This document shows, piece after piece, positions 461 to 63,319 of a DNA stretch of 64,000 nucleotides; position 1 is the first letter of the stretch; the number at the start of each line of letters is the position of its first letter. The notes beneath the pieces were generated by a model, which worked only from the letters and a program-made list of their open reading frames with translations, had not been told where the DNA came from and made no database searches. The stretch is taken from assembly GCF_008919445.1 (NCBI RefSeq), contig NZ_VSLG01000002.1:248001-312000 (forward strand). The letters run 5' to 3'. The stretch comes from Serinicoccus kebangsaanensis. Its GTDB lineage: Bacteria; Actinomycetota; Actinomycetes; Actinomycetales; Dermatophilaceae. The translations under genes were made by a program, and so were the position numbers.

Positions 461-1899
461 CGGGTGGTCCTCTCGCGCAGGGGCAGGGTGATCGCGACGG
501 TGGTGCCCGCGCCCACCGGCGAGTGGACGTGCAGCTGACCGTCGACCGCGCCGACGCGCTGCCGCAGGCCGGTGAGGCCGGAGCCGGCGCCGACGAGCGC
601 GCCGCCCGCCCCGTCGTCCGTCACCGAGACGGTGAGCAGGTCGCCGGTCAGGCCCCGGGCGGTGCCCAGCTCGACGCCGGCGCGGTCGGCCTGCGCGTGC
701 TTGGCGATGTTGGTCAGCGCCTCGGAGACGGAGAAGTAGGCGATGGCCTCGACCGTCGGGTCCAGCCGCCCGGCGGGCAGCCGGTTGGTCACCGTGACCG
801 GCACCGGGCTCCGGGCGGCCAGCGCGGACACCGCGGCGTCGAGCCCGCGGTCCGTGAGGATCGGGGGCACGATCCCGCGCGCGACCTGACGCATCTCGGT
901 GATCGCCTCCTTGCTGGAGGAGTGGGCCTCGTCGAGCAGCTGGCGGACGTGTCTGGAGGTCTCCGGGTCGGCGCTGCCGCCGTCCCGGTCGAGCGCGTCC
1001 CGGGCCAGCCCCAGGCTCATGGCGATCGAGACCAGGCGCTGCTGCGGCCCGTCGTGCAGGTCCCGCTCGATCCGCCGACGCTCGGCCTCGACCGAGTCCA
1101 GGGTGTCCTCGCGGGTGGTCGTCAGGGTGTCGACCCGCTCGCTCATCCGGCGGAGCTGGGCCTGGGCGTCCTCGCCGATGAGCCACCGGGCCAGGACGAC
1201 GTCCACGCTGGCCAGACCGCGGGCGATCCACGGCATACCGAGCACCACCGCGACACCCACCAGCCAGGCCACCGTCATGCCCAGCGTCGAGCCGACCCGG
1301 AACAGGCCCATGACCGAGACGCCGTCCCCGAGCCAGGCCCACAGCGGCATCGTCGCGAGCAGGGCGCCGTTGACGAGCAGCGCGAGGCCGAGCGCGCCGG
1401 AGATCAACCCCCACAGTCCGTGCAGGCCGGCCCAGCCGAGCGCCCGGAGCCGGACCTCGTCCAGACCCAGCACCCGTCGCCAGGTGGGGGCGGAGGAGGG
1501 CGGGCGCTCCCCGACGTCGACGCCGAGGAACGCGGCGATGCGGTGCCGCTCGACCAGGGACAGCACGAAGGATCCCCAGATCGCCGGCACCAGGATGAGC
1601 ACCCCGGCCCCCATGCCGAGCAGTGCCGCCATGCCACCCACGGCCACGCCGGCCAGGGCCAGCGCGAAGACCGCGGTGAAGAGTCCGGTGACGACGTAGC
1701 AGACGGTCCACCAGGCATCCAGCAGCCAGCCGAGGACGGCGCCCGGGATCCCGGATGTGGGCCTCGCGGGCGCCGTCGACCCTCCCGCGTCGTCGACGGG
1801 ACCACCCTGCTGCCCGGACGTGGGGCCGGGCACCAGTCGGGCCATGCCGGCCGACTCGAGGTCGGGCGACCCGTCAGCCCGTGCCGTGTCTCCGCTCAT
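457..1899 (-). CDS. Two-component sensor histidine kinase (HisKA_3 family)
   Basis: This 480-aa membrane kinase has hydrophobic segments at about residues 53-115, 155-190 and 205-235, resembling the actinobacterial multi-pass 'putative sensor' domain. The dimerisation box ERDLHDGPQQRL carries the likely phospho-accepting His282. The C-terminus is an HATPase domain with an N box (SEALTNIAKHA) and a G box (GSGLTGLRQRV). This arrangement is typical of the NarX/DesK/LiaS type, which phosphorylates NarL-type regulators such as the overlapping downstream gene. There is no extracellular loop of any size, so the stimulus is probably sensed in or at the membrane. Two inverted repeats lie 60-135 bp upstream of the start. 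Confidence 0.93.
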   Translation of the reverse strand: MSGDTARADGSPDLESAGMARLVPGPTSGQQGGPVDDAGGSTAPARPTSGIPGAVLGWLLDAWWTVCYVVTGLFTAVFALALAGVAVGGMAALLGMGAGVLILVPAIWGSFVLSLVERHRIAAFLGVDVGERPPSSAPTWRRVLGLDEVRLRALGWAGLHGLWGLISGALGLALLVNGALLATMPLWAWLGDGVSVMGLFRVGSTLGMTVAWLVGVAVVLGMPWIARGLASVDVVLARWLIGEDAQAQLRRMSERVDTLTTTREDTLDSVEAERRRIERDLHDGPQQRLVSIAMSLGLARDALDRDGGSADPETSRHVRQLLDEAHSSSKEAITEMRQVARGIVPPILTDRGLDAAVSALAARSPVPVTVTNRLPAGRLDPTVEAIAYFSVSEALTNIAKHAQADRAGVELGTARGLTGDLLTVSVTDDGAGGALVGAGSGLTGLRQRVGAVDGQLHVHSPVGAGTTVAITLPLRERTTR

Positions 1900-2346
1900 A
1901 CGACCTCAACGTAGTCATGCAGGGGCGTGCGGTGCAGGGTGTGCACCCCCGAGCGCTCTGGGGGATAACCCCCGGCAGGTGCCCCCGCAACCCCTGTCCG
2001 GTCGGCGTGGTCGCGCCCGGACAGGCTGTCCGGGGGCAGACGTGAGGGAGGGCGCGTCGGTCCCGTGACAGCCGACGCGCCCTCCTCGACGGACACTCGA
2101 TCCCTCCCGGCGACCGGGACGGGGGCGGACGCGCAGGGGGTGAAGCCCGCATCCGACCCAACGTCGCCTTCGACGTGTCCGGTCGACCGCCGCGAACCCG
2201 AGGAGCGTGCCCCGGGCACCACTGCAGCCGACTCCCTCACGCTAACCCGGGGTCGGCAAAGGGTGGGTATGCCGTGGGTAAGGAATTGGTCAAATCCTGA
2301 CGCAGCGGCAAGGACGTGTGTCGGTGGCGTGGGTCAGACTGCGGGT
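1900..2346. promoter_or_regulatory. Divergent intergenic region with two dyads
   Basis: This 447-bp gap separates the divergent kinase and ligase genes. It holds a GGGGG-ATAA-CCCCC hairpin (1960-1973) and a dyad with 9-bp arms around one base, CCCGGACAG-G-CTGTCCGGG (2016-2034). Either could be an operator for the neighbouring response regulator. One copy of the window-wide GTATGCC motif (2267-2273) also lies here outside any gene. The open frame that continues upstream of the ligase start has no recognisable protein content, so I leave it as non-coding. Confidence 0.4.
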
Positions 2347-3876
2347 ATGCAGCTGGCCCAGGTGACCGGGACGTCCGCCGCGGTGGCGGCCACCCGGTCG
2401 CGCACCGAGAAGACGTCCCTGCTGGCCGACGCGCTGCGGCTGGTGGCCGGATCCGGAGACGCGCGCGAGGTCGAGGTGGTCGCGGACTACCTCGCCGGCA
2501 CGCTGCCGCAGCGGACGGTCGGTGTCGGGTGGCGCAGCCTGCGGGAGCTGCCGCCGGCGGCGACCAGCCCGACCCTGACCGTGCCGGAGGTCGACGCGGC
2601 GCTGACCGACCTCAAGGCGCACGCCGGTGAGGGGTCGGCCGGTGCCCGGGCCGAGGCGGTGCGTGAGCTGATGAGCAGGGCCACCGGGCCGGAGCAGGAC
2701 TGGCTCGTCGGCCTGCTCACGGGTGAGCTGCGGCAGGGCGCCGGTGACGGTGTGCTGCTCCCGGCGATCGCGCTGGCGGCCGACGTGCCGGAGGCGCTGG
2801 TCCGGCGAGCGGTGATGCTCGCGGGCTTCCCGGGCCCGGTGGCGCGGGCGGCCCTGGCCGGCGGGGCGCCGGCCCTGGAGCAGGTGCGGCTCGAGGTCGG
2901 CCGACCGCTGCGGCCGATGCTCGCCGGGTCCGAGCCCGACATCGGCTCCGCCGTCGAGGCGGGCCGGGAGCTGGCCCTCGACCTCAAGCTGGACGGCATC
3001 CGGGTCCAGGCCCACGTCGACCACGACCGTGACCCCGACGCGCCGGTCCGGCTCTTCACCCGGAGCCTGGAGGAGATCACCGACCGTCTGCCCGAGGTGG
3101 TCGCGGCGCTCGCGGCCCTGCCCGCCCGCACCGCCGTCCTCGACGGCGAGGTGATCGCGCTGGCCGCGGACGGCCGCCCCGAGCCGTTCCAGGTCACCGG
3201 GGCCCGCACCGCCTCGCGCACCGACCCCGCCGAGCTGGCCCGCACCACCCCGGTGACGACATACCTCTTCGACCTGCTGCACCTCGACGGCCGGGACCTC
3301 GTCGACGAGCCGGCGCACCGGCGCTGGTCCGCGCTCGCCGAGGTCGCGCCCGGTCTCGTGGTCGAGCGGCTGCGGACCGACGACCCGGCCGCCGCGCAGG
3401 CCTTCTTCGACCGCGTCGTGGACCAGGGCCACGAGGGGGTGGTGGTCAAGGACCCGCTGGCCCCGTATGCCGCCGGTCGCCGTGGTGCCGGCTGGGTGAA
3501 AGTGAAGCCGCGCCGCACCGCCGACCTCGTCGTCATCGCGGTGGAGTGGGGCAGCGGGCGACGGCAGGGTTGGCTGTCCAACATCCACCTGGCGGCCCGG
3601 GGTGCCGACGGGGAGCTGGTGATGGTGGGCAAGACGTTCAAGGGGATGACGGACGAGATCCTGCGGTGGCAGACCGACCGCTTCCTCGGCCTGGAGACGC
3701 GCCGGGAGGGCCACGTGGTGCACGTGCGGCCGGAGCAGGTCGTGGAGATCGCCTACGACGCCGTGCAGACCTCGAGGCGCTACCCCGGCGGCATCGCGCT
3801 GCGGTTCGCGCGGGTGCTGCGCTACCGGGACGACAAGGGTGCCGAGGAGGCGGACACGCTCGACGCGTTGCGCTGA
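2347..3876 (+). CDS. ligB: ATP-dependent DNA ligase (LigB-like)
   Basis: This 509-aa protein matches the length and order of mycobacterial LigB: an N-terminal DNA-binding domain (from about residue 10), an adenylation domain with motif I KLDGIRV (AMP-accepting Lys214), motif III/IIIa (YLFDLLHLDG), motif IV (GHEGVVVKDP), motif V (GWVKVKPRR) and an OB-fold with motif VI near RYPGGIALRFAR. It seals nicks using ATP and is an accessory to the NAD-dependent LigA. I chose the ATG at 2347 because the family begins with a similar MxLxxV segment. No clear ribosome-binding site precedes it, so the mRNA may be leaderless. Confidence 0.93.
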   Translation: MQLAQVTGTSAAVAATRSRTEKTSLLADALRLVAGSGDAREVEVVADYLAGTLPQRTVGVGWRSLRELPPAATSPTLTVPEVDAALTDLKAHAGEGSAGARAEAVRELMSRATGPEQDWLVGLLTGELRQGAGDGVLLPAIALAADVPEALVRRAVMLAGFPGPVARAALAGGAPALEQVRLEVGRPLRPMLAGSEPDIGSAVEAGRELALDLKLDGIRVQAHVDHDRDPDAPVRLFTRSLEEITDRLPEVVAALAALPARTAVLDGEVIALAADGRPEPFQVTGARTASRTDPAELARTTPVTTYLFDLLHLDGRDLVDEPAHRRWSALAEVAPGLVVERLRTDDPAAAQAFFDRVVDQGHEGVVVKDPLAPYAAGRRGAGWVKVKPRRTADLVVIAVEWGSGRRQGWLSNIHLAARGADGELVMVGKTFKGMTDEILRWQTDRFLGLETRREGHVVHVRPEQVVEIAYDAVQTSRRYPGGIALRFARVLRYRDDKGAEEADTLDALR

Positions 3877-3963: not shown

Positions 3964-5490
3964 ATGACCAGTGCCACCGCCAACCTCGCCCACAACCTGT
4001 CCCGGACCGCGGAGCGGGTCCCCGACCGCCCGGCGGTGATCCTGGACGACTTCGTGCTGCCCTACCGCGACCTGGAGCACTCGGTGCGGCAGCTGGCCGG
4101 GTGGCTGCGGGCCCAGGGCATCGGGGAGGGTGACCGGGTCGCCCTGATGCTGCCCAACGTCCCGTCCTTCCCGGTGATCTACTACGCCGCGCTGCGGATC
4201 GGGGCGGTCGTCGTGCCGATGAACCCGCTCTTCAAGCGGCGCGAGATCCAGTTCTACCTCGAGGACTCCGGGGCGCGGCTGCTCGCCGCGATGCCCGGGG
4301 AGGAGGCCGCGGCGGCGGCGGAGCAGACCGGCGTCCAGCTGCTCGCGATCGGGCCGGAGGGCCTGAGCTCCTACGTCCACGGCGACGACGCGGTCGACCC
4401 GGTCGAGGAGATCGTGGAGCGCGCCGGCGAGGACACCGCAGTGATCCTCTACACGTCGGGGACCACCGGGCGTCCCAAGGGCGCCGAGCTCACCTGCGAC
4501 AACCTGCAGACCAACCAGCTGGCCACCACCGAGACCCTGCTCCACCTCGACGAGGACGACGTGGTGATGGGGTGCCTGCCCCTCTTCCACGTCTTCGGCA
4601 TGACGTGCGGGATGAACACCGCCTTCGACACCGGGGCGGCGCTCACGATGATCCCGCGCTTCGACCCGGCCAAGGCGCTGCAGGTGATCGAGCGGGACGC
4701 CGTGACCGTCTTCGAGGGGGTGCCCACGATGTACGGCGCCATGCTCGCCGCCGCCGGCGCCGCGGAGCAGGCGCCCGACCTGTCCACCCTGCGCACCGCC
4801 GTGTCCGGCGGGGCGAGCCTGCCGCTGGAGGTGATGAAGCGCTTCGAGGAGACCTTCGGGGCGACGATCCTCGAGGGCTACGGGCTGTCCGAGACCTCGC
4901 CGGTCGCGTCCTTCAACCACCCGGACTCCGAGCGCAAGGCCGGGTCGATCGGCATACCGATCCGGGGCGTGGAGATGAAGCTCGTCGGCCCGGACGGGGC
5001 CGAGGTGGGCGACAGCGACGAGGAGGACCCGCAGATCGGTGAGATCTGCATCCGCGGGGAGAACATCATGAAGGGCTACTGGGACCGCCCGGACGCCACC
5101 GGCGAGGCGATCGACGCCGACGGGTGGTTCCACTCCGGCGACCTCGCGCGGCGGGACGGCGACGGCTTCTACTTCATCGTGGACCGCAAGAAGGACATGA
5201 TCATCCGCGGTGGCCTCAACATCTACCCGCGGGAGATCGAGGAGCTGCTCTACGAGCACCCCGCCGTCGCCGAGGCCGCCGTCATCGGCGTCCCGCACGA
5301 CGAGCTCGGGGAGGAGGTCGCGGCCTACGTCGTGCTGGCGCCCGACGCCTCGGCCACCGAGGCCGAGCTGATCGAGCACGTGAAGAGCCAGGTCGCGCCG
5401 TACAAGTACCCCCGGTCAGTGACCACGATCGAGGAGCTGCCCAAGGGAGCGACCGGCAAGATCCTCAAGCGGGAGCTGCGGGACTCCTGA
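3964..5490 (+). CDS. Long-chain fatty acid--CoA ligase (AMP-dependent synthetase)
   Basis: This 508-aa enzyme belongs to the ANL adenylating superfamily and forms acyl-CoA through an acyl-AMP intermediate. It has the P-loop YTSGTTGRPKGAEL (about residues 163-176), the A5 motif GYGLSETSPV, the hinge region GDLARRDGDGFYFIVDRKKD and the C-terminal catalytic lysine in GATGKILKREL. Length and hinge fit FadD-type fatty acid activation better than acetate activation, but the chain length is not readable. An AGGAGG ribosome-binding site precedes the ATG. Its last 26 bp overlap the end of the convergent GH35 gene, so neither gene can be terminated without reading into the other. Confidence 0.9.
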   Translation: MTSATANLAHNLSRTAERVPDRPAVILDDFVLPYRDLEHSVRQLAGWLRAQGIGEGDRVALMLPNVPSFPVIYYAALRIGAVVVPMNPLFKRREIQFYLEDSGARLLAAMPGEEAAAAAEQTGVQLLAIGPEGLSSYVHGDDAVDPVEEIVERAGEDTAVILYTSGTTGRPKGAELTCDNLQTNQLATTETLLHLDEDDVVMGCLPLFHVFGMTCGMNTAFDTGAALTMIPRFDPAKALQVIERDAVTVFEGVPTMYGAMLAAAGAAEQAPDLSTLRTAVSGGASLPLEVMKRFEETFGATILEGYGLSETSPVASFNHPDSERKAGSIGIPIRGVEMKLVGPDGAEVGDSDEEDPQIGEICIRGENIMKGYWDRPDATGEAIDADGWFHSGDLARRDGDGFYFIVDRKKDMIIRGGLNIYPREIEELLYEHPAVAEAAVIGVPHDELGEEVAAYVVLAPDASATEAELIEHVKSQVAPYKYPRSVTTIEELPKGATGKILKRELRDS

Positions 5491-7900
5491 CCGCGAGCCG
5501 CACCGCGCGCGCGTCCGGGGCCAGGACCCGCCAGCGCCCCTGCGCCGCCACGACGTCCACCTCCGGGTCCGCGCAGGAGGGTCGACCCCCGGACACCCAC
5601 AGCTCGGTCTGCCGACCCAGGCCCGGCCCGACGGCGAAGCCGTCGTCGCAGAGCTCGGTGAGCTCGGCGTTGGCGGAGTCCAAGCGCACCCCGCAGGGCA
5701 GGTCCAGCCCGAGGGCGAGGATCGCGCCGGTCCGTGGCGGCACGGCCAGCGGCCGCTCCAGCAGGTCGGTGGGGTCGCCCGGGGTCACGGCGACGGAGGC
5801 GGCATACCCCGTCGGGTTGAGGACGTGCAGCATCCGTTCACCCGCGGGAGTGCCGGAGGTCGTGACCACCACGCCCGGCACGTCCGTCTCCAGGCCGAGC
5901 CCGCGCCGGGCTCCGAGCCACTCGGTCAGCAGGGTGAACAGCTGCGGGCTGCTCGGCACCTCCGCGGCGACGACGGCCGCGCGCCCCTCGCCGAGCCGGA
6001 CCCCCAGCCCGCAGAGGTGGCCGTCGACGTCCTCGACGAGGGGGACCGCGCCCTCCGGTCCGCGCAGCTCCTGCCACCAGCCGACCCGCATCTCGCCCCA
6101 GGCCGCGGCCGGCCCGAGGCCACGCACGGAGCCGTAGTGCCGGTGGGTCGACCGGACCCGCTCACCGGCGCTGACCCCGAGGGCGTCGGCGAGGGTGGTG
6201 CACGGTCGACCGCGGGTGTCCGTCGAGGGCACCGGACCGAGCAGCAGCAGACCACCACCGTCACGGACGTGCCGGACCAGCCGCTGCTGCACCCCGTCGT
6301 CCAGCACCTCGCCGCAGGCCAGCGCCACGACGCCCGGGAGCGGCCGCCCGGGGTCGGAGACGTCGACGGCGCTGAACCTCCACCCGTCGAACAGCCAGGA
6401 CCGGCTCATTGCCTTGTGCGGCCCCGGCCCGCGGTGCGCCTCCAGGTCCCGGACGACCCGCGTCATCGGCTCCGAGGAGGGGTGGTGGTACTCGGTGAGG
6501 AAGGCGTCCGGCCAGAAGGCGAGGGCGATGTCGTCCCGCTCCTCGTCGTGGTCGGCCAGCCAGCGCGCGTGCAGGCCCGCCGCGCGGGTCACGGCGGCCG
6601 TCGCCGCGAAGGTGAGGCCGCGCTGCCCCTCCGGTCCGATCGGTGCCGCGGTGCCGTGCCGGCGGCCGGTGAAGGAGATCCGGTCGTTGCCGTCGCCCAC
6701 CTTCTCCTCCAGCGGCGGGTTGATCCCGCCCGCCAGCAGGTAGTAGTTGATCAGCCGGTTGCCCTGCGCCAGGCACAGCCGCACCTTGAGGTCGACGGCG
6801 CAGGCGTCGGTGAGGCGGTCCAGCCCGGCCTCGTAGTCACCGGTCCCGGCCTCGAACTCCAGCGAGGTCAGGGGCTGGTCGGGTCCGTTCACCGCCTCCA
6901 TGACCGCGTTGACGAAGTGGATGTCCGTGGTGGTGGAGCGGTCCATGTCCCCCAGGTAGTGGTCGGACCCGGCCGCGAAGCCCTCCTTGCCGGCGTAGCA
7001 GCGGTAGAGCTGGCTGACCCCGATCGCGAAGGGCACGCCGTTGCCGCCCTCGGTGCCGTGGATGTTGATGAGGAGCGGCAGACCGTCCAGGCCGGCGCCA
7101 CGCACCATCGAGGCGAGGGCGTCGACGTAGGCCGCGAACCGCTCGCGCATGAACAGCCCGAGCTCGACCCGCAGGTCGGCCGCCACCTCCCCGGTCGGGG
7201 TGCGCACCAGGGACCGCCACCAGCCCGGGTCGCTGCCGGCGCTGCGTGCGGCCGCGACGAGCCGCCCCGCTGCCGGACGATCGGCATACCGCTCGCTCAC
7301 CCAGGCGCCGAGGTCGTCGACGAGTCCGTCGGTCAGGTCCGGGGAGTTCGACACCCACGCCAGCATCCCGATCTCGTTGTCCAGCTGCACCCCGATGACC
7401 GGGCCGCCGCGGACGGCGCTGCGGGCGGCGAGCACGGGCAGGACGGCGTCGAACCAGCGCTGCACCTCGGCCAGGAAGGCCGGGGCGAGGTAGTCGACGG
7501 TCCGGGTCGGGGCCGGCCTGGAGTCCCAGCCGACGGGCACGATCTCCGGGTGCTCGGTGTAGAGCCGGTAGGGCAGTCCCTCGTTCTTCAGCTCGGCCAT
7601 GACGAACGGGCCGGGCCGGGCGAGGAAGGTCAGCCCACGCTCGGCGGCCAGGTCGACGAAGGCGCCGAGGTCCCGCTCCGCCCGGCTGCTCCCGGTGACG
7701 TCGAGGGTGCCGTCCGGCAGCTCGTGCCACAGCCAGGGGATGTAGGACGCGACACAGGTGCACCCCGCCTCCACCAGCAGGTCCAGGCGGTCACCCCACT
7801 CCTCGCGGGGCACCCGGAAGTAGTGCACCTCCCCGGCCAGCACCAGGTCGGGTCGGCCGTCGACGAGGATCCTCCGGCGGCGGATCTCGATCCGGGTCAT
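5465..7900 (-). CDS. Glycoside hydrolase family 35 protein
   Basis: This 811-aa cytoplasmic enzyme has an N-terminal GH35 TIM barrel beginning with the family start DGRPDLVLAGEVHYFRVP. The likely acid/base is Glu176 in QLDNEIG and the likely nucleophile is Glu348 in LEFEAG. No signal peptide is present. GH35 is best known for beta-galactosidases, but the family also includes an enzyme acting on beta-1,2-glucosidic linkages. The start overlaps the GH94 stop as ATGA, so the two are one transcript. That pairing with a GH94 phosphorylase suggests trimming of imported beta-glucan oligomers, which is inference. The substrate cannot be fixed from sequence alone. Confidence 0.88.
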   Translation of the reverse strand: MTRIEIRRRRILVDGRPDLVLAGEVHYFRVPREEWGDRLDLLVEAGCTCVASYIPWLWHELPDGTLDVTGSSRAERDLGAFVDLAAERGLTFLARPGPFVMAELKNEGLPYRLYTEHPEIVPVGWDSRPAPTRTVDYLAPAFLAEVQRWFDAVLPVLAARSAVRGGPVIGVQLDNEIGMLAWVSNSPDLTDGLVDDLGAWVSERYADRPAAGRLVAAARSAGSDPGWWRSLVRTPTGEVAADLRVELGLFMRERFAAYVDALASMVRGAGLDGLPLLINIHGTEGGNGVPFAIGVSQLYRCYAGKEGFAAGSDHYLGDMDRSTTTDIHFVNAVMEAVNGPDQPLTSLEFEAGTGDYEAGLDRLTDACAVDLKVRLCLAQGNRLINYYLLAGGINPPLEEKVGDGNDRISFTGRRHGTAAPIGPEGQRGLTFAATAAVTRAAGLHARWLADHDEERDDIALAFWPDAFLTEYHHPSSEPMTRVVRDLEAHRGPGPHKAMSRSWLFDGWRFSAVDVSDPGRPLPGVVALACGEVLDDGVQQRLVRHVRDGGGLLLLGPVPSTDTRGRPCTTLADALGVSAGERVRSTHRHYGSVRGLGPAAAWGEMRVGWWQELRGPEGAVPLVEDVDGHLCGLGVRLGEGRAAVVAAEVPSSPQLFTLLTEWLGARRGLGLETDVPGVVVTTSGTPAGERMLHVLNPTGYAASVAVTPGDPTDLLERPLAVPPRTGAILALGLDLPCGVRLDSANAELTELCDDGFAVGPGLGRQTELWVSGGRPSCADPEVDVVAAQGRWRVLAPDARAVRLAVRSPAAPA

Positions 7901-48377: not shown

Positions 48378-48491
48378 CCGGCCGGCAGCATCGTGGACCG
48401 TGACCAGATCGTGACCCGCGCGGAGGCATACCCGTGACGGGCGAGATGTTCGACCTGACCAGAGAGCGCACCCGACCGGGAGGACCCCATC

Positions 48492-53957: not shown

Positions 53958-55060
53958 GCTCCCGGGACCCGCAGCGCCAGCCGGTCGCGGGGTGGCTGTT
54001 CATCACCCCGATGCTCGTCGTCCTGGGGCTGTTCCTCGCCGCCCCGATCGTCATGGCGCTGTGGGTCTCGGTCTCGGACTGGACGGGCCGCGGGAGCCCG
54101 TTCTCCTCCGAGGTCAGCTTCGTCGGTGCCCAGCACTACCGCGACCTGCTCGCCACCGACGGTCTCGCGCGCCAGGACTTCATGACCTCGATGCGCAACA
54201 CGTTCTACTACGTGCTGGGCGTGGTGCCGGCCCAGACCGTCCTCGCGCTGACCCTCGCGGTGATCGTCAACCAGCGCTTCCTGCGCGGGCGCACCTTCTT
54301 CCGCACCGCGTTCTACTTCCCCTCCGTCGTGAGCTCGGTGGCGATCTCGCTGGTCTTCCTCTTCCTCTTCACCGGCACCGGGGCGGTGAACCAGTTCCTC
54401 GGCCTGTTCGGGATCTCCGGACCCAACTGGTTCGCCGACTCGCGCGGCGTGCTGCACGTCGCCGGTGACGCCGTGGGTCTGTGGGACGCCTCCGCACCGC
54501 CCTCCGGCCTGGCCGGCACCGAGGTGCTGAGCCTGTCCCTGTGGGAGTGGCTCGCCGGACCGTCCGTCGCCCTGAGCGCCATCATGCTGCAGGTCGTCTG
54601 GACGACCGCGGGGACCTTCATGCTGATGTTCCTGGCTGCGCTGCAGGACCTGCCGGCCGAGGTCGACGAGGCGGCGATGGTGGACGGCGCCAACCGGTGG
54701 CAGCGGTTCATGAACGTCACGGTGCCGCACCTGCGGCCCACCATCCTGCTGGTCATCACCCTGGGCATCATCGGCACCTGGCAGGTCTTCGACCAGGTCT
54801 ACATCATGACCGACGGCGGCCCGGCCAAGACGACGCTCACCCCGGCCTACCTCAGCTTCCAGACGGCCTTCGAGAACATCGACTTCCCGAAGGGCGCCGC
54901 CATCGCCTTCCTGCTGTTCGCCCTCATCTTCGTGCTGACCCAGCTGCAGCGCTTCCTGCTGCGGGACCGCGACGAGGCGCGCCAGCGCCGGGCCGAGCGG
55001 CAGCAGCGCCGGCAGCGACGGCATACCCCCGCCCGACCGACCTCGGAGGTGTCCGCATGA
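53954..55060 (+). CDS. Sugar ABC transporter permease (MalF type)
   Basis: The 368-aa permease has a larger extracytoplasmic insertion than the first system (about residues 150-195), six core helices and the EAA loop DEAAMVDGANRWQRFMNVTV. It ends in an Arg-rich cytoplasmic tail of about 30 residues. It overlaps both neighbours (GTGA and ATGA). Confidence 0.92.
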   Translation: MSSRDPQRQPVAGWLFITPMLVVLGLFLAAPIVMALWVSVSDWTGRGSPFSSEVSFVGAQHYRDLLATDGLARQDFMTSMRNTFYYVLGVVPAQTVLALTLAVIVNQRFLRGRTFFRTAFYFPSVVSSVAISLVFLFLFTGTGAVNQFLGLFGISGPNWFADSRGVLHVAGDAVGLWDASAPPSGLAGTEVLSLSLWEWLAGPSVALSAIMLQVVWTTAGTFMLMFLAALQDLPAEVDEAAMVDGANRWQRFMNVTVPHLRPTILLVITLGIIGTWQVFDQVYIMTDGGPAKTTLTPAYLSFQTAFENIDFPKGAAIAFLLFALIFVLTQLQRFLLRDRDEARQRRAERQQRRQRRHTPARPTSEVSA

Positions 55061-55941
55061 GTACGACGACCCGGACGGCTGCGCCGAAGACGAGCGCGCC
55101 CGCCGTCGGCGAGCGCGACACCTCGGTCAAGAAGGTGGTCGTGTATGCCGCGCTCATCGCCTTCGCGATCATCTACATCTACCCCTTCGTGGTCCAGCTG
55201 GTCACGGCGTTCAAGACCAACGCGGACGCGGTGGACCACCCGCTGTCCCTGATCCCGGACCCGTTCAGCCTGGACGCGTGGAACCGGCTGCTGGACACGC
55301 AGTTCCCGCTGTGGTTCACCAACTCGTTCGTCGTGACGATCTTCGTCACGGTGATGCGGGTGCTGTTCTGCTCGATGGCGGGGTATGCCCTCGCCCGGCT
55401 GAAGTTCTTCGGCCGGGACACCGTCTTCCTGCTGCTGCTGGCCGTGATGTCGGTGCCGGGCATCGTGCTGCTCATCCCCAAGTTCCTGGTCATCAACTAC
55501 CTGGGCATCTACAACTCCTACCCGGCGCTGATCCTGCCGCTGGCCGTGGACGCGGCGGGCGTGTTCATCATGAAGCAGTTCTTCGAGCAGATCCCGCCCT
55601 CGATCGAGGAGGCCGCGCGGATCGACGGTGCCGGGCCGTTCCGGACCTTCTGGTCCGTGGTGCTGCCGATGGCCAGGCCGGCGCTCATCACGCTGACTAT
55701 CCTGTCCTTCCAGGGGTCGTGGAACGAGCTGGGGCACTTCATCATCGCCACCAACGACTCGGACCTCTACACCCTCACGCGCGGGTTGGCGAGCCTGACC
55801 AGCGGTGGTCTGGGGTCCGGCAACCAGTTCCCGATCACGATGATGGCGGGCCTGCTCATGACCATCCCGTCGGCCATCGTCTTCATCTTCTTCCAGCGCT
55901 ACTTCACCCAGGGCGCCAACGCCGGCGCCGAGAAGGGCTGA
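55057..55941 (+). CDS. Sugar ABC transporter permease (MalG type)
   Basis: The 294-aa permease has six helices and the EAA loop EEAARIDGAGPFRTFWSVVL. Together with the MalF-type partner and the lipoprotein it forms an importer without its own ATPase. A strong hairpin terminator follows 27 bp after the stop. Confidence 0.92.
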   Translation: MSTTTRTAAPKTSAPAVGERDTSVKKVVVYAALIAFAIIYIYPFVVQLVTAFKTNADAVDHPLSLIPDPFSLDAWNRLLDTQFPLWFTNSFVVTIFVTVMRVLFCSMAGYALARLKFFGRDTVFLLLLAVMSVPGIVLLIPKFLVINYLGIYNSYPALILPLAVDAAGVFIMKQFFEQIPPSIEEAARIDGAGPFRTFWSVVLPMARPALITLTILSFQGSWNELGHFIIATNDSDLYTLTRGLASLTSGGLGSGNQFPITMMAGLLMTIPSAIVFIFFQRYFTQGANAGAEKG

Positions 55942-55998: not shown

Positions 55999-56030
55999 GT
56001 CGCGGACTCAGGCTGACTCGGCCTGATGCC

Positions 56031-58745
56031 TCACAGGCCGCTGACGCGGTCCTCGGGGGCGCTCAGGTCCGGGTTGGCCTCGAGGTAGTCGACCAGGTTG
56101 GCGAGGTCCTCCGGACCGCCGACCAGGTCGGTGCCCTCGGTGAAGGCGGTGAAGCTGTCGCCGCCCTGCTGGAGGAAGTTCAGGGTCGAGACCCGGTAGG
56201 TCTGATCCATCTCCAGCGCGACGCCGTCGAGCTGCATGTCGCTCACCTTGCCGCCCTCGGGCTGGCTGTCGTCCCAGGTGTAGGTGAAGCCCTCGGAGAC
56301 GCCCAGCGCGAGGTAGGGGCGACCGCGGTCCGGGACGTACTGCTGCTCCAGGACCGCCTTGATCTGCTCGCCGGTCATGTCGATCGAGACCAGGATGTTG
56401 CCGAACGGCATCACGTTGTACGTCTCCTGGTAGGTGACCTCGCCCGGCGCCTCCTCGTTGCTGATCTGGTCCACCAGCAGGCTGGCCCGGACGCCGCCGA
56501 CGTTCATGAACGAGATCTGCGCCCCGCCCTCGTCGTCGCCGTCGGTGCCCCAGAGGATGGAGTCGGCCACGAGGCCGGCCATCGGGGTCTCGATGCCGCG
56601 GTCACCGCCGGCGTCGCCGGTGATGTCCTCGGTCACGGTGCCGACCACCTCGCCGGCGAGCACGGCGGACCGCGCGACCCACTTGTCGACCACGCTGACC
56701 ATCTCCGGGTCGTCGGTGATGGACTGCAGCACCAGGTGGTTGTCCGCCCGGGCCCGGTCACGCGTCACGTCACCGGTCTCCCGGGAGATGGTCAGTGCCG
56801 TCTCGGTGACCACCCGGCCGTACTGGTTGGCGCTGGTGACCAGCCGGTCGGCACCGGCCGGGTCCGGGATGGAGCACACGTAGGGCTGGTGCGTGTGGCC
56901 GGTGACCACCGCGTCGATGGCCGGGTCGAGGTTCTCCGCGATCTCGACGACCGGGCCGGAGATGCCCTCACAGCCGTTGAAGACGCCGGTCTGGTAGCCG
57001 CCCTCGTGCAGCAGCACCACGATCGACTCGACACCCTGCTCGCGCAGGCTGGCCGCCTGGGCGTTGGCCGTCTCGACCTCGTCCAGGAAGTCGACGGTGG
57101 ACACGCCGCCCGGGCTCACCAGGGTCGGGGTGTCCTCGAGCGTCATGCCGATGAAGCCGACGTCGACGCCCTCGACCGAGCGCACCTCGGTGGCGGGCAG
57201 GATCGGCTCACCAGTCTCGTTGTCCACGACGTTGGCGGCCAGCCACTGGAAGTCCGCGCCGTCGTAGGGCTCCTCCTCGAAGCACCCACGCTCGGGGTGG
57301 CAGCCGCCGTTCTGCATCCGCAGCAGCTCCTCGACGCCCTCGTCGAACTCGTGGTTGCCGACACCGGAGATGTCCAGGCCCGCGACCTCCAGGGTCTCGA
57401 CCGAGGGCTCGTCCTGGAAGAGACCGGAGACGAAGGTGGAGCCACCGATGAGGTCACCGGCCGCGACCGTCAGGGTCTGCTCCTCGAAGGAGCGGGTCCG
57501 CAGCGCATCCAGGGTGGCGGAGAGGTTGATCGCCCCGCCGACGAGGTTCTGGTCGGGGTCCTGCTCCGGGTCCAGGACGCCGTCCTCCTCCTCGATGTGA
57601 CCGTGGTAGTCGTTGAACGACAGCATCTGCAGGACCATCTCGTCGACCCAGGCCGGCAGCGCGGCGTCCAGCGCGGCCGCGACGTTGTCGTCGTCGAGCG
57701 CGGCCGCACCACCGAAGAGGACGGCGCCCTGCGGCGACATCGCGTCGAGCGCGGCGAGGGTGGTCGCCGGGATGCCGCCCGGACGGCTGAGCAGCAGCGG
57801 ACCCTCGTGGTATGCCGCGAACGCGCCGCCGCTGAGGGCGTCCGGGTAGTTCTCGCCGCTGGCGAGGTAGGCGACCGAGTCGTACTCGTAGGACGAGGCC
57901 AGGGCCACGGCCGTGGCATACCGGTCCGGGCCGAAGACCCGACTGGTGTCGGGCACCAGCTCGGTCACGGCCGCGACGACGTCGTCGGAGACGGCACCCG
58001 AGCCACCGAGGACGACCACGGAGGCGGGTTGCAGGTCGGCGATGACCTCGGCGGTGCTGTCCTGCAGCGTGTCCGGGTCGGTCAGCAGCATCGGGACGCC
58101 GTCGCGTCCGGCGCGGGCGCCACCGGTCAGCGCGTCCGGGAAGTCCTCGCCGGTCGCGAGGTAGAGCACCGGGAGTCCGGTCGGGAAGAGGCTCGCGAGC
58201 TCGGCCGAGGTGTCGTAGCGGTCCTCGCCGGAGATGCGCTCGACGTCGGCCCCGAAGCCCTCGAGCTCGGTCTCCACGTCCTCGGAGATCGCGGCCTCGC
58301 CGCCGACGACGATGATCTGGCTGGGTGCGAGGTCGGTGAGCGCCGAGGCGGTCGCGTCGGGGAGCTGGTCCTGCCTGGTGAGCAGCATCGGGGTGGGGAG
58401 ACCCGCACCCTCGACGTCCGGCTCGGCCACGCCACCGGCGACACCCGACATCGACGCGGGGAGCTGGGCGCTCAACGCGTCCGGGAAGAGCTCACCGGAG
58501 GCGATCAGCACGGTGCCGGTGGCGTCCTGCGGGAAGGCTCGGGCGATCTCGGCGGCCGTCCCGTAGCGGTCAGGTCCGGAGATGCGCAGCACCTCCGTCG
58601 GGTCCTCGATCTCGGGGGCTGCCGGCAACGCCGACGGCGGGGCTGCCGGCGAGGTGGCGGCCACCGCGGCACCTCCGCTCACGAGCGCGGCCGCGGCGCC
58701 TGCGGCCACCAGGCCGCGACGCGCGAAGAGGGTTGGGTGGGACAT
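56031..58745 (-). CDS. 5'-nucleotidase/UDP-sugar hydrolase with N-terminal CWB2 repeats
   Basis: The 904-aa exported protein has a signal peptide (about residues 1-30), then three cell-wall-binding repeat 2 (CWB2) units beginning RISGPDRYGTAAEIA, RISGEDRYDTSAELA and RVFGPDRYATAVALA (about residues 50-330), a metallophosphoesterase domain with SFNDYHGHIEE and GVGNHEFDEG, and a C-terminal 5'-nucleotidase domain (NVMPFGNILV and TLNFLQQGGDSF). It probably hydrolyses extracellular nucleotides while bound to the cell wall. CWB2 usually comes with peptidases or amidases, so the order is unusual. Start chosen at the ATG 10 nt after GAGGAG. Confidence 0.9.
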   Translation of the reverse strand: MSHPTLFARRGLVAAGAAAALVSGGAAVAATSPAAPPSALPAAPEIEDPTEVLRISGPDRYGTAAEIARAFPQDATGTVLIASGELFPDALSAQLPASMSGVAGGVAEPDVEGAGLPTPMLLTRQDQLPDATASALTDLAPSQIIVVGGEAAISEDVETELEGFGADVERISGEDRYDTSAELASLFPTGLPVLYLATGEDFPDALTGGARAGRDGVPMLLTDPDTLQDSTAEVIADLQPASVVVLGGSGAVSDDVVAAVTELVPDTSRVFGPDRYATAVALASSYEYDSVAYLASGENYPDALSGGAFAAYHEGPLLLSRPGGIPATTLAALDAMSPQGAVLFGGAAALDDDNVAAALDAALPAWVDEMVLQMLSFNDYHGHIEEEDGVLDPEQDPDQNLVGGAINLSATLDALRTRSFEEQTLTVAAGDLIGGSTFVSGLFQDEPSVETLEVAGLDISGVGNHEFDEGVEELLRMQNGGCHPERGCFEEEPYDGADFQWLAANVVDNETGEPILPATEVRSVEGVDVGFIGMTLEDTPTLVSPGGVSTVDFLDEVETANAQAASLREQGVESIVVLLHEGGYQTGVFNGCEGISGPVVEIAENLDPAIDAVVTGHTHQPYVCSIPDPAGADRLVTSANQYGRVVTETALTISRETGDVTRDRARADNHLVLQSITDDPEMVSVVDKWVARSAVLAGEVVGTVTEDITGDAGGDRGIETPMAGLVADSILWGTDGDDEGGAQISFMNVGGVRASLLVDQISNEEAPGEVTYQETYNVMPFGNILVSIDMTGEQIKAVLEQQYVPDRGRPYLALGVSEGFTYTWDDSQPEGGKVSDMQLDGVALEMDQTYRVSTLNFLQQGGDSFTAFTEGTDLVGGPEDLANLVDYLEANPDLSAPEDRVSGL

Positions 58746-59114: not shown

Positions 59115-60959
59115 ATGGCAGGCAGCGGGGGATCTCGACGTCCCGGGGGAGCGCGGCTGCTCGCGTCGTCCATGCTCACCGGGGCGCTGGTGCTGTCCGG
59201 GACGATGGCCCTGGCGGACGGCGAGGACCAGACCGTCGTCGACCCGGCCGCACCCGCCACGCCCGCGGACGGGACCGACCAGATGGTGGTCGCCGCTCCC
59301 GACCAGGGCACCGACGAGAGCGGCACGACGGACCAGCACGGGTCCCCGTCCACCGGCACCGGCTTCCGCTACGGCGGGATGCCGGCCGGCCCGGCGACCC
59401 TGGTCACGCTCCCCGAGGACCCGGCATACCCGGTCCCCGAACCGCCGGAGAACGACGCTCTCCCGACCCAGGTGGACGAGGACACCAGCTATCAGGACCA
59501 GGTGTCCTGCGATCCGGAGGACCGCCCCGGGGTGACCGCCTTCGCGATGCTGCTGTCCGAGCACTACGGCCGGACGGCCTGGAGCGGTGCCCGCGCCTGC
59601 ATCGACTACATGAGCCAGCATCACGACGGCCGCGCGCTGGACTGGTCGCTCAACGCCTTCGACCCGCAGGACCGCCGCATCGGCGACGCCGCCGTCACCT
59701 GGCTGACCGAGAACGACGGCGAGATGATGCGCCGCTTCGGGATCGAGTACGTCATCTGGAACGGCCTCATCTACATGAAGGACGACAACGCCTGGCGTCA
59801 CTACGTCGGCGCGAGCCCGCACACCGACCACGTGCACCTGTCCTTCACCTGGGACGGCGCCATGATGCGGACCTCGTGGTGGACCGGGGTCGCGGTGACC
59901 GAGCCCGACCTCGGGCCGTGCGCCACGACATCGGCGCAGTATGCCGCGATCCACACCTTCCCCCGGTTCGAGGCGTGCTCCGACACGGCGATCGGGACGC
60001 CCTCCACCGAGTTCGGTCGGGTGCGCCCGGGTGAGGCCGGGCCGGGCGTCTCCATGCTGCAGACGGTGCTCGGGATCGAGCCGAGCGGGGTGCTGGACGA
60101 GGCGACCCGCACCGCGCTGATCGACTGGCAGACCGAGCACGACCTCCCGGCCACGGGTGTGGCCGACGCCGTCACCTACGCGGCGGCCCAGGGGATCGAG
60201 CTGGGCGAGGTGCCGGAGTCGGCGCTGGCGGTCCTCCCCGAGGACTGGCAGGTCTCGGAGTTCACCCCCTACCGGCGGACGACGCTCACCCAGGGTGCCG
60301 AGGGCAAGGCCGTGGTCGTCGTGCAGGAGGCCCTGGGCGCCGAGCCGGACGGTGTCTTCGGGCCCAAGACCGCCGAGGCCCTGGCCGCCTTCGAGGAGAC
60401 CGTCCCGGTGCTGGCCGAGCAGGCCGAGCGGCGGGGCGACGAGCCGGCCGCGGTCACACCCCTGACCTGGCTGTTCCTGGAGCGTGCCGTGCACCCCACG
60501 ATGGCGCTGCGCGACATCGAGCTCGCCGAGGGCAGCAGGGACATGGCCGGGGACCCGGACGGAGAGCTCGCCGCGGCGGCGACCCTGGAGGGTCGCACCG
60601 ACAGCCCGTATGCCGGTGGCGCCGTCACCCTGCTGCAGGAGCTGGTGGACGTCGAGGCGGACGGCATCTTCGGTCCGCTGACCGCCGAGGCCGTGGCCGA
60701 GCTGCAGGAGGCCGCGGGCCTCGAGCCGACCGGCGTCGTCGACGGACCCACCTGGGCGGCGGTCGAGGAGGTCGCCATCGAGACGGAGCGGCTCGCCGGG
60801 GCGCCCGGCCTGGAGGCCCAGCGGGAGCGCGAGCGTCGCGAGGCCGAGAAGCGCGAGGCGCAGGAGCAGGAGCGCCGCGAGGCGCAGGAGAAGGAGCGCG
60901 AGGAGCAGGAGCGGCGCGAGGCCGAGCACGAGGCCGCCGTCGCCAACGCCGACCGCTGA
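59115..60959 (+). CDS. Secreted peptidoglycan-binding protein with three PG_binding_1 repeats
   Basis: The 614-aa protein has an N-terminal signal (about residues 1-36), an acidic disordered stretch, a domain with GRALDWSLNAFDPQDRRIG and SPHTDHVHLSFTWDG that resembles a family of actinobacterial cell-wall proteins related to D-Ala-D-Ala metallopeptidases (His residues visible), then three peptidoglycan-binding repeats (GPGVSMLQTVLGIEPSGV, GKAVVVVQEALGAEPDGV, GGAVTLLQELVDVEADGI). The last 60 residues are a highly charged Glu/Arg/Gln helix, a probable coiled coil. It likely acts on or anchors to the cell wall. An alternative ATG lies at 59070. Confidence 0.8.
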   Translation: MAGSGGSRRPGGARLLASSMLTGALVLSGTMALADGEDQTVVDPAAPATPADGTDQMVVAAPDQGTDESGTTDQHGSPSTGTGFRYGGMPAGPATLVTLPEDPAYPVPEPPENDALPTQVDEDTSYQDQVSCDPEDRPGVTAFAMLLSEHYGRTAWSGARACIDYMSQHHDGRALDWSLNAFDPQDRRIGDAAVTWLTENDGEMMRRFGIEYVIWNGLIYMKDDNAWRHYVGASPHTDHVHLSFTWDGAMMRTSWWTGVAVTEPDLGPCATTSAQYAAIHTFPRFEACSDTAIGTPSTEFGRVRPGEAGPGVSMLQTVLGIEPSGVLDEATRTALIDWQTEHDLPATGVADAVTYAAAQGIELGEVPESALAVLPEDWQVSEFTPYRRTTLTQGAEGKAVVVVQEALGAEPDGVFGPKTAEALAAFEETVPVLAEQAERRGDEPAAVTPLTWLFLERAVHPTMALRDIELAEGSRDMAGDPDGELAAAATLEGRTDSPYAGGAVTLLQELVDVEADGIFGPLTAEAVAELQEAAGLEPTGVVDGPTWAAVEEVAIETERLAGAPGLEAQRERERREAEKREAQEQERREAQEKEREEQERREAEHEAAVANADR

Positions 60960-61091
60960 GCCTGTCGCAGCGGTCCGAGGCTGCCGCGACCTGCCCGGCG
61001 ACCCAGGAAGCACACACCGGGGCGAGGCAACGTGCCAGCGGGCCCGTCGCGTCCTAGGGTGGACCGGACCGAGGCGACGGAGGGTGCATCG

Positions 61092-62582
61092 ATGAGGCGG
61101 ACATGGGTGGCGACGGTGGCCGGGCTGACCGTGGCCCTCGGTCTCAGCGGGGCCGGACTGACGTCCCTGGCGAGCAGCGCCGACGCCGACATCCCCGAGA
61201 CCCAGGCCACCAGCACCGCCGTGCGCTGGAGCGGGCTGGGGCCGGCGCCCTGCCCGGAGGGCATGACCCGCAGGGTGAGCATCTACCGCAACGGCATGGA
61301 CGGCTCGCTGCCACAGCCACGCTTCAACAACGGCTGGACCTCGGTCTCCTCCAGGGACGGTTCGGCGGCCCGGGCCTCGGTCTCCTCCGGTGACACCAGC
61401 GACCACCTCTTCCTGCCCTACGACCGGGTCGACGTCGACCGGCGGACCATGCTCGGGTTCTCGACGCGCAGCACCCAGGGCAACTCGACGCACACCCGTG
61501 CCCAGGTCAACTCGGTGGACCTGCGGGTGCAGGCGAGCCAGTCCTGGGACGGGCGGGTCTACGACGTCACCGCGGCCACCGACGACGAGGGCGGCCAGCT
61601 CGGCACCTGGTTCGAGCACACCAGCGCGGGCGCCAGCACCCGGTGGGACCTCGACAATGTGCAGATCTACACCTGCCGCAACGCGCCGGTCTCCCGGGTC
61701 TCGGGGTCGGACCGGTATGCCTCGGCCGCCCAGATCGCCGCCACCTACCCGGCGGACGTCCCGGTGGCCTACCTCGCGACGGGGGAGAACTTCCCGGACG
61801 CGATCGGTGCCTCCGCCCTCGCCGGACACCGCAACGCACCGGTGCTGCTGACCCGACCGGGCAGCCTGTCGGCGTCCACCGCGGCGCAGCTGGACCGGCT
61901 CTCGCCCGAGCGGCTCGTGGTGCTCGGCGGCGGCGCGGCGGTGAGCAACGCGGTGGCCCGGGAGGCGGGCGGCTATGCCGGGTCGACGACCCGGATCACG
62001 GGTGCCACCCGCTATGACGTCTCTGCGGGGGTCGCCGCGTCCTACTCCCCGGGCGGCTCGGTCCTCTACGTCGCGACCGGGGACAACTTCCCCGACGCGC
62101 TCGCGATCGGCGCGCTGGCCGGTGACCAGGGCGCGCCGGTGCTGCTCACGCCGCAGGGAGGGCTGCACCCGGCGGTGGAGAGCGAGATCGCCCGGCTGAA
62201 CCCGGGCCGGATCGTCGTGGTGGGTGGCTCGGCCGCCGTGTCGAACACCGTCCTCACCCAGCTGCGACGGCATACCGCCGGGTCGGTCACCCGCATCTCC
62301 GGCCCGAACAGGTATGCCACCGCCTCGCGCATCGCCCAGCGCTTCGACCCCGACCCCGCCCGGGTCTACGTCGCCACCGGCGAGAACTTCCCGGACGCGC
62401 TCGTCGGTGCGGCGCGCGGCGGAAGCCAGGGGGTGCCGGTGGTCCTGACCCCGCAGGCGCAGCTGTCCCGCGAGGGGCGCTACGCCCTGCGCGCGCTCGA
62501 GGCCCGCCGGGGCGTGCTGCTCGGCGGGTGGGCCGCGATCAGCTCGGTGGCCATGGACCAGGTCGGCGCGCACGTCGGGTGA
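61092..62582 (+). CDS. Secreted CWB2-repeat protein with unknown N-terminal domain
   Basis: The 496-aa exported protein has a signal peptide (about residues 1-33), an unrecognised beta-rich domain of about 165 residues with repeated TSVSS and DVTAATDD segments, and three C-terminal CWB2 repeats (RVSGSDRYASAAQIA, RITGATRYDVSAGVA, RISGPNRYATASRIA). The CWB2 units bind cell-wall polymers non-covalently. It differs from the 5'-nucleotidase in having the repeats at the C-terminus. It lies 14 bp upstream of the next gene and may be cotranscribed with the redox cluster that follows. Confidence 0.85.
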   Translation: MRRTWVATVAGLTVALGLSGAGLTSLASSADADIPETQATSTAVRWSGLGPAPCPEGMTRRVSIYRNGMDGSLPQPRFNNGWTSVSSRDGSAARASVSSGDTSDHLFLPYDRVDVDRRTMLGFSTRSTQGNSTHTRAQVNSVDLRVQASQSWDGRVYDVTAATDDEGGQLGTWFEHTSAGASTRWDLDNVQIYTCRNAPVSRVSGSDRYASAAQIAATYPADVPVAYLATGENFPDAIGASALAGHRNAPVLLTRPGSLSASTAAQLDRLSPERLVVLGGGAAVSNAVAREAGGYAGSTTRITGATRYDVSAGVAASYSPGGSVLYVATGDNFPDALAIGALAGDQGAPVLLTPQGGLHPAVESEIARLNPGRIVVVGGSAAVSNTVLTQLRRHTAGSVTRISGPNRYATASRIAQRFDPDPARVYVATGENFPDALVGAARGGSQGVPVVLTPQAQLSREGRYALRALEARRGVLLGGWAAISSVAMDQVGAHVG

Positions 62583-62596
62583 CGGAGGAGACCAGC

Positions 62597-63319
62597 ATGG
62601 AGACGACACATCGGCTGCTGTCCGGCGAGACGGTGCGGATCGAGGTGCCGGACGCCGCCGGGCTGCCGAGCGGGACCTCGCTGGGCGTGCTCGCGCTCGA
62701 GGGGGCCGGCCAGCTCGAGGTCACCTCCGGGCTGGAGGCGGACCTCGCCTTCTACCTCGAGGTCACCGGGACCAGGCTGGAGCGTGAGGTGAGCCTGCGG
62801 GACGGCCGGACCCTGCGCTACGGCCGCTTCGGCGGCGACCCGGAGCAGGGCTTCGGCTGGGCCGTCGCGGTCGACGCCCACCAGCTCTACGGCTTCACCG
62901 TGCCCGTCATGGGCATCGAGGAGCTGACCGGCTATCTCGCCGACGTCGACGTCCAGGGGGATCGGCTCGGCCCGGTGCTGACGCCCTCCGGTCGGGTCGG
63001 CTGGTCCGACTACCGCACGCAGACGGTGGCGCAGGTGGTGGAGCTGGCGGGCACCTCGCCCGGAGGCGGGGACGGCACCGGTCAGCTGGGCTATCTGCTC
63101 GACATCCGGCGGGCCCGGACCGGCCAGCTGCAACCGGGGCAGTCCGCGGGGACGCGGGTGCGAGGGGGACTGCTGTCGCGGTCCTCGGACGCCGAGCGGC
63201 ACCCGTATGCCGTGCTGGAGAACGCGGACTTCGTCACCTACGGCATGCCCGGCAACGAGGAGATCGTCGACGCCGTGATCACCTCGATGTCGGAGACCGT
63301 CGTGGAGCTGGGCCGATGA
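62597..63319 (+). CDS. Conserved hypothetical protein beside MauE/MauD genes
   Basis: I do not recognise this 240-aa protein. It has no signal, membrane segment or cysteine, and a beta-rich sequence with ETVRIEVPDAAGLPSG at the start and GFGWAVAVDAHQLYGFTVPV in the middle. It overlaps the MauE start as ATGA. The protein at 14424-15185 has the same position in the first redox cluster and faint similarity in this middle part. It may assist assembly of an exported client encoded beyond the window. Confidence 0.7.
   Translation: METTHRLLSGETVRIEVPDAAGLPSGTSLGVLALEGAGQLEVTSGLEADLAFYLEVTGTRLEREVSLRDGRTLRYGRFGGDPEQGFGWAVAVDAHQLYGFTVPVMGIEELTGYLADVDVQGDRLGPVLTPSGRVGWSDYRTQTVAQVVELAGTSPGGGDGTGQLGYLLDIRRARTGQLQPGQSAGTRVRGGLLSRSSDAERHPYAVLENADFVTYGMPGNEEIVDAVITSMSETVVELGR

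Follow-up and report, generated by a model that had tools for sequence, protein, structure and literature searches.

GGCATAC, an over-represented heptamer of Serinicoccus kebangsaanensis and its family, as a candidate DNA uptake sequence

What maintains a seven-base word in large excess along an actinobacterial chromosome? The question was raised by a 64-kb stretch of the Serinicoccus kebangsaanensis genome (contig NZ_VSLG01000002.1, positions 248,001 to 312,000; hereafter the window), in which the heptamer GGCATAC, or GTATGCC on the other strand, occurs 53 times. From its counts, codon contexts, layout and distribution among relatives, we consider that GGCATAC probably serves for DNA uptake in an actinobacterial family that would be capable of natural transformation, and that biased transformation maintains it.

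Excess and codon contexts of GGCATAC

Upon recounting the window, we found 27 copies of GGCATAC and 26 of GTATGCC on the plus strand, the first at 1232 and the last starting at 63205, which reproduces the strand-balanced count of the original prediction. Under order-1 and order-2 Markov models, GGCATAC together with its own complement was the joint top heptamer (expected 2.4 and 2.6), and under an order-3 model (expected 5.4) it ranked second behind the overlapping TATGCCG. The excess in the window was about 10 to 22 fold depending on the order of the model; the over-representation claimed earlier was thus real, but larger than the proposed nine times. Across the whole 3.50-Mb genome we counted 1,320 + 1,323 = 2,643 copies, compared with 57 + 67 = 124 for the reversed-pattern control, so the genome-wide count was far from chance expectation. 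The density was 0.75/kb genome-wide and 0.82/kb on the 409-kb home contig, with a mean spacing of 1.2 kb.

The extended form of the word in this genome was CGGCATACC: among 335 home-contig copies, C preceded the heptamer in 68% and followed it in 63%. Single-letter changes to CGGCATAC left it enriched at position 1 (G 11.1, A 7.8 and T 2.7 fold) and weakly at position 3 (A 3.3 and T 2.0 fold), while all others were at most 1.6 fold. Only about 9 bp carried strong information; weaker preferences for particular bases reached from -10 to +9.

Codon-level analyses used our own GC3-based gene calls, which gave a coverage of only 29% in one relative (G014). Window genes held 44 copies, compared with 4.4 ± 2.0 after synonymous codons were shuffled within genes (maximum 10 in 500) and 3.3 after a pooled synonymous shuffle (maximum 8 in 500). 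These shuffles rule out dipeptide or codon composition as the cause, an objection that the original prediction had raised to itself, and bear out its claim of selection at the DNA level. Within window genes the motif contained 27 of the 41 TAT codons and two of the three ATA codons. On the home contig the word occupied all six frame and orientation classes, consistent with the earlier claim that every frame is used, and 29 of 52 ATA codons in genes fell within it. Rare codons were raised where they completed the word: TAT for Tyr between G and GCC (141/158; elsewhere 140/1963), ATA for Ile between GGC and C (29/69; elsewhere 23/3426), GTA for Val before TGC|C (13/26; elsewhere 105/10513), CAT for His (21/36; elsewhere 288/2853) and GCA for Ala (57/154; elsewhere 719/14662). 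In the GT|ATG|CC frame, GGT for Gly was raised (14/25) and AGT for Ser weakly so (2/5, p 0.035), but CGT for Arg was not (1/6). The predicted forcing of rare codons was therefore seen in every frame, limited in the last one to Gly and Ser. Outside called genes of the home contig there were 59 copies against 48 expected by length, a density similar to that within genes. Taken together, these results support drive or selection on the word as DNA, irrespective of protein, frame and, from the layout described below, replication direction.

A neutral bias in mutation could leave a similar trace, for instance if methylated C were deaminated so that GTACGCC became GTATGCC. The transition precursor CGGCGTAC was nearly emptied (11 vs 64.8 expected), and TAC filled only 17 of 158 G|TAy|GCC contexts. 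However, the transversion routes ATC to ATA, GTC to GTA and GCC to GCA were also enriched in context. Several routes being transversions, the six-frame codon test rules out C-to-T deamination as the only cause, and we give neutral mutation bias almost no weight.

Layout along the chromosome

The copies in the window lie as follows, with strand referring to GGCATAC:

1232..1238, plus, GGCATAC copy
2267..2273, minus, GGCATAC copy
3465..3471, minus, GGCATAC copy
4951..4957, plus, GGCATAC copy
5801..5807, plus, GGCATAC copy
7283..7289, plus, GGCATAC copy
8075..8081, minus, GGCATAC copy
9934..9940, plus, GGCATAC copy
10272..10278, minus, GGCATAC copy
11892..11898, plus, GGCATAC copy
13422..13428, minus, GGCATAC copy
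15799..15805, plus, GGCATAC copy
17344..17350, plus, GGCATAC copy
18851..18857, minus, GGCATAC copy
19223..19229, minus, GGCATAC copy
21707..21713, plus, GGCATAC copy
22740..22746, minus, GGCATAC copy
23165..23171, plus, GGCATAC copy
23644..23650, plus, GGCATAC copy
25850..25856, plus, GGCATAC copy
26154..26160, plus, GGCATAC copy
28062..28068, minus, GGCATAC copy
28851..28857, plus, GGCATAC copy
29518..29524, minus, GGCATAC copy
29704..29710, plus, GGCATAC copy
32375..32381, plus, GGCATAC copy
33669..33675, plus, GGCATAC copy
35152..35158, minus, GGCATAC copy
35530..35536, minus, GGCATAC copy
36858..36864, plus, GGCATAC copy
37191..37197, minus, GGCATAC copy
40914..40920, plus, GGCATAC copy
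42680..42686, minus, GGCATAC copy
44702..44708, minus, GGCATAC copy
45031..45037, plus, GGCATAC copy
46021..46027, minus, GGCATAC copy
48026..48032, minus, GGCATAC copy
48425..48431, plus, GGCATAC copy
50157..50163, plus, GGCATAC copy
52375..52381, minus, GGCATAC copy
52615..52621, plus, GGCATAC copy
55020..55026, plus, GGCATAC copy
55143..55149, minus, GGCATAC copy
55383..55389, minus, GGCATAC copy
57810..57816, minus, GGCATAC copy
57915..57921, plus, GGCATAC copy
59423..59429, plus, GGCATAC copy
59939..59945, minus, GGCATAC copy
60608..60614, minus, GGCATAC copy
61715..61721, minus, GGCATAC copy
62269..62275, plus, GGCATAC copy, inverted relative to the copy at 62312
62312..62318, minus, GGCATAC copy, inverted relative to the copy at 62269
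63205..63211, minus, GGCATAC copy

Genes of the DnaA, DnaN, YidC and ParB families cluster near 155.8 kb of the home contig (G000:C20), and this dnaA-dnaN-parB-yidC region, some 92 kb to the left of the window, is likely the replication origin. Relative to it, 159 copies on the contig were leading and 176 lagging (p 0.38). This absence of orientation bias rules out replication polarity as the cause and agrees with the original description of the word as unlike KOPS-type polarity sequences.

Pairs of copies in the same orientation within 500 bp numbered 31, compared with 56.1 ± 6.9 expected (0 of 1000 as low). The depletion recurred in a sample of 36 stretches or loci from ten other enriched genomes plus 13 named loci (693 kb; uniform null, three bins summed), where pairs at most 500 bp apart were 36 direct and 99 inverted, each against about 87 expected. 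The depletion of same-orientation neighbours hints at a strand-specific reading of GGCATAC. In the passages on uptake sequences that we cite below, no such orientation-dependent depletion is described, which makes it a new feature as far as those passages go.

Directional reading is also what a Chi-like hotspot would involve. An end-resecting recombinase of the RecBCD/AdnAB type would read the word on one strand and switch to recombination, and the word would be enriched because it aids repair or recombination. A short asymmetric word with same-orientation but not opposite-orientation depletion fits such a reader. However, known Chi sites usually show a leading-strand bias, the enrichment of GGCATAC exceeds that known for Chi, and in part of the relatives the word is paired in hairpins. 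Without a leading-strand bias the Chi-like role loses weight, and we consider it unlikely.

The spacing of copies on the home contig was mildly even, with a coefficient of variation of 0.886 compared with 0.996 ± 0.054 at random (73 of 5000 as low). Together with the strand balance, this would suit an architectural signal for a protein that organises the nucleoid or chromosome. Such a signal is difficult to reconcile with orientation-dependent depletion at the 500-bp scale, or with a word that drifts among genera and stays below 0.2/kb throughout 22 of the 53 genera sampled; we judge it very improbable. The nucleoid and recombination-site roles listed in the original prediction gained no positive evidence of their own.

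We also compared copies with those of a congener over a 40-kb alignment at 80% identity. Thirteen of the 15 congener copies were shared, whereas other heptamers with three A/T letters were shared in 44% of cases (p 0.0009).

Distribution, dialects and hairpin pairs among relatives

We surveyed 119 genomes from 53 genera of the family, which we take to be Dermatophilaceae in GTDB terms, with S. kebangsaanensis included. Genomes with at least 0.2/kb were called enriched, densities being computed with rounded genome sizes. We used density rather than the reversed-pattern control for relatives because that control can be inflated where the word ends in ACGG (CATACGG overlap). The threshold was reached by 63 of the 119 genomes in 31 genera, with a maximum of 1.38/kb; the genera that were low throughout are those noted above, and three genera were mixed. 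No genome reached it among 184 from 19 other families of the order or among 243 further genomes outside the family. The highest value outside the family was 0.198/kb, from a 1.9-Mb genome in family f28 with 377 copies; in the sampled members of f28, which are distant and have small genomes, GGCATAC stood at 1.1 to 4.6 times the control. We also analysed 25 of 80 loci for CGGCATAC: 20 came from the family or from unplaced Micrococcales, of which 13 passed the threshold, and five were outgroup loci, of which none did.

A ComEC tree covering 30 of the 119 genomes required seven changes of the enriched label, five of these forced by well-supported branches, whereas shuffled labels gave a mean of 10.0 changes (20 of 500 as low as seven). 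This tree is built from one gene and includes two rows with long branches; with seven changes, it does not show a single origin of the word. The nearest ComEC relatives of S. kebangsaanensis in one scan were Ornithinimicrobium species.

Related words were enriched in several genomes when counted against codon-aware expectations. In G003 the dialect CG[GTCA]CATAC gave 41, 25, 14 and 9 copies against 3.2, 2.3, 1.6 and 1.3 expected. CGCATACC was enriched in G020 (8 vs 0.9) and in the congener G080 (15 vs 1.5), in the latter alongside CGGCATAC (15 vs 2.5), and CGGCATCC in G016 (37 vs 8.0) and more weakly in G001 (13 vs 4.8). These variants of GGCATAC form dialects of the kind described for uptake sequences. 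Six genomes (G009, G010, G014, G041, G045 and G049) had none of the listed related words in 40-60 kb each and no comparably strong de novo word in 20-40 kb each, the latter search being weak for G014.

An unrelated, strand-balanced 9-mer, CCCCCTTCG, occurred at 0.40-0.55/kb and in all frames in five genomes (G037, G038, G074, G101 and G117; stretches L014, L015, L050, L051 and L213-L232) from g38 and g39, two genera with little GGCATAC. Eight other genomes that we tested showed no enrichment of it. In G038 we counted 81 copies in genes against 9.3 expected, with strands at 55/54. Adjacent pairs closer than 60 bp were ten inverted and one direct, followed by 8 vs 9 at 60-250 bp and 6 vs 12 at 250-500 bp; the orientation effect of GGCATAC was therefore not seen for CCCCCTTCG in G038 beyond 60 bp.

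These dialects bear on the proposal, also made in the original prediction, that the word is the target of an orphan or restriction-linked methyltransferase; its copies would then be selected as methylation marks. A seven-base asymmetric word with adenines does resemble type IIG/IIL or type III targets. In 24 of the 119 genomes, 18 with the word (two chiefly in another dialect) and six without, we found MmeI_Mtase in 13, N6_N4_Mtase in 9, Eco57I in 17 and DNA_methylase in 16. None of these four families, PF02384 and PF02086 not being among those searched, was present in every enriched genome tested. G007, whose draft is 98% complete and contains 4,856 copies, had no match to any of the four. 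Dialects such as CG[GTCA]CATAC, and CCCCCTTCG in two genera, are likewise hard to fit. The proposal was not supported, and we hold it to be quite improbable. HIP1 of cyanobacteria is another highly iterated short word, and it is palindromic and linked to methyltransferases; GGCATAC is neither palindromic nor linked to the four families tested.

In relatives, the word also forms the outer stem of hairpins (e.g., L208:2460 and L020:11334). Six hairpins picked by eye, one of them from S. kebangsaanensis, exceeded shuffled sequences in folding by 3.7 to 9.0 standard deviations. The arrangement GTATGCCG-6..36-CGGCATAC was present in 71 of the 119 genomes, with at most three for the reversed control. 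Defining an excess as Poisson P < 0.001 over a chance ceiling set by copy density, we found one in 36 of the 63 enriched genomes and 18 of the 31 enriched genera, for instance in G043 (220 vs 21.6) and G098 (83 vs 9.4). The congeners G047, G080 and G104 showed none.

A DNA uptake sequence and its possible machinery

Of the roles listed in the original prediction, a DNA uptake signal appears to be the best supported, given the layout, the dialects, the excess in all frames and the near-universal ComEC and ATPase. GGCATAC is non-palindromic, occurs about once per kilobase and is in large genome-wide excess, as an uptake sequence would be. Published DNA uptake sequences (DUS) and uptake signal sequences (USS) are spaced about 1-1.5 kb apart in the passages cited (PMC7811141, PMC2397512). 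In those and related passages, uptake sequences stand roughly 1 kb apart without bias in chromosomal orientation, form dialects, occur in inverted hairpins and are scarce in acquired DNA (PMC7811141, PMC1939737, PMC3630211, PMC2397512, PMC2346458). Two of these features, hairpin pairs and scarcity in acquired DNA, were found only partly.

As for machinery, ComEC was present in 115 of the 119 family genomes and an ATPase of the T2SSE family, which takes in Tad/Flp ATPases among others, in 118 (116 over the family cut-off). In S. kebangsaanensis an intact comEC adjoins the gene of a ComEA-like protein with SLBB and helix-hairpin-helix domains. One T2SSE-family ATPase gene adjoins a T2SSF gene, as would fit a Tad cluster; pilins were not identified there. 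ComEC, a ComEA-like protein and a T2SSE-family ATPase are thus at hand for uptake. They are the gene kinds of Micrococcus luteus, which, in the parts of the report cited, transforms via Flp/Tad pili and ComEA/ComEC (PMC4322843). The phrase "uptake sequence" is absent from the text of that paper, and none of the sampled genomes in the order's 19 other families reaches 0.2/kb. M. luteus belongs to another family.

How would such a word accumulate? A surface DNA receptor of a Flp/Tad-pilus and ComEA/ComEC machine would prefer word-bearing DNA, and imported fragments would recombine with the chromosome. Through preferential uptake and recombination, a chance mutation that makes the word would spread from cell to cell more readily than the alternative form. 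By molecular drive, the word would then build up until a stretch as long as an imported fragment holds about one copy. Competence, receptor, biased uptake and recombination are the parts we infer here. The layout of the word, close to that of the known uptake tags of Neisseria and Haemophilus, suggests that these bacteria may recognise DNA from their own kind and import it in preference to other DNA.

The closest parallel is the DUS of Neisseriaceae. In the passages cited (PMC3630211, PMC2397512), it shares with GGCATAC a short non-palindromic word at about 1/kb without chromosomal orientation bias, a family-wide spread with some genomes devoid and drift into dialects. The resemblance extends only in part to inverted hairpin pairs, which some of our genomes have and others do not, and to scarcity in acquired DNA, which here concerns a single segment. 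DUS are described there as often lying in inverted terminator hairpins (PMC2397512). GGCATAC differs in its unrelated sequence, its host in a high-GC Gram-positive phylum, the rarity of PilM, the depletion of same-orientation neighbours and the unrelated word of two genera. With the USS of Pasteurellaceae, as described in the passages cited (PMC7811141, PMC1939737), GGCATAC shares copy density, frequent occurrence in coding sequence, balanced orientation and a pattern of molecular drive. The two differ in extent, strong information in GGCATAC covering only the 9 bp or so described above. A USS has a 9-10 bp core plus further AT-rich segments.

Several observations weigh against an uptake sequence, some of them from the machinery. 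We know of no uptake or competence experiment in this family. The DUS receptors known so far are parts of type IV pili, while PilM of such pili was found in only five of the 119 genomes, S. kebangsaanensis not among them. This rules out the type IV pilus as determinant, and a ComP-type receptor is therefore not expected. No receptor was found, in a look limited to the gene listing of one Tad-like cluster. Relatives that lack the word also carry ComEC and the ATPase; the machinery therefore permits the word but does not predict it, and the presence of either gene, being near-universal, is uninformative as a determinant.

Other such points come from the layout. Evenness of spacing was weaker against random choice among one-mismatch sites (218 of 5000 as low). 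From the S. kebangsaanensis side of the congener alignment, 13 of 23 copies were shared (p 0.16). Opposite-orientation pairs within 500 bp were not depleted (76 vs 65.5 ± 7.3 expected), and H. influenzae uptake is, in the passages cited, independent of orientation (PMC1939737), unlike the neighbour depletion seen here. Hairpin pairs in S. kebangsaanensis numbered five, below a chance ceiling of 15.5, and 26 other enriched genomes of the 63 also lacked an excess. A segment with some glycan-type genes, at 112-151 kb of the home contig (G000:C20:112000-151000), had 15 copies against 33.7 expected (P 2.5e-4), which speaks in favour of an uptake sequence, but it was picked post hoc from the copy profile; four genes scanned in it encode a glycosyltransferase, an ABC-2 transporter, an acyltransferase/SGNH protein and an inositol-phosphate synthase. 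In the single phage examined, from the family member Tetrasphaera jenkinsii, the word was neither enriched nor below its own expectation (3 copies vs 2.3-3.7).

A more specific version of the uptake reading would combine several parts. The family would have its own actinobacterial uptake system, based on Tad/Flp pili and a novel kind of receptor; the word would drift into dialects and be replaced by CCCCCTTCG in two genera; and GGCATAC would be read by strand, its orientation deciding which strand or side is imported. We put this combination forward tentatively, as possible but rather less than even, its odds being lowered by CCCCCTTCG, which lacks the orientation effect beyond 60 bp.

To our knowledge, uptake sequences come from two Gram-negative families. 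Our literature searches for the GGCATAC heptamer turned up two papers, both outside bacterial genetics as judged by title and abstract, and no uptake sequence for Actinobacteria appeared among the matches listed. If GGCATAC is an uptake sequence, then self-tagging for DNA uptake evolves repeatedly, here in a different phylum and with a different pilus. The word would also predict which genera are transformable among dozens that are little studied and offer a simple genetic handle. Its orientation-dependent spacing gives a testable lead on the way in which such words are read.

Other words and genes were met along the way. CGNCGTAC was dropped as a further dialect, being also enriched in Kribbella, Nocardioides and Actinopolymorpha outgroup loci; CGNCGTAC or CGTACGTC was about 3 to 5 fold enriched at single loci of Actinopolymorpha, Kribbella and Nocardioides (L108, L110, L120 and L139). 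Genome G060 had eight N6_N4_Mtase matches, two of which are pieces of one open frame. In the congener G080 (L022 and L058-L060), CAACTCA was enriched over codon-aware expectation (35 vs 6.2).

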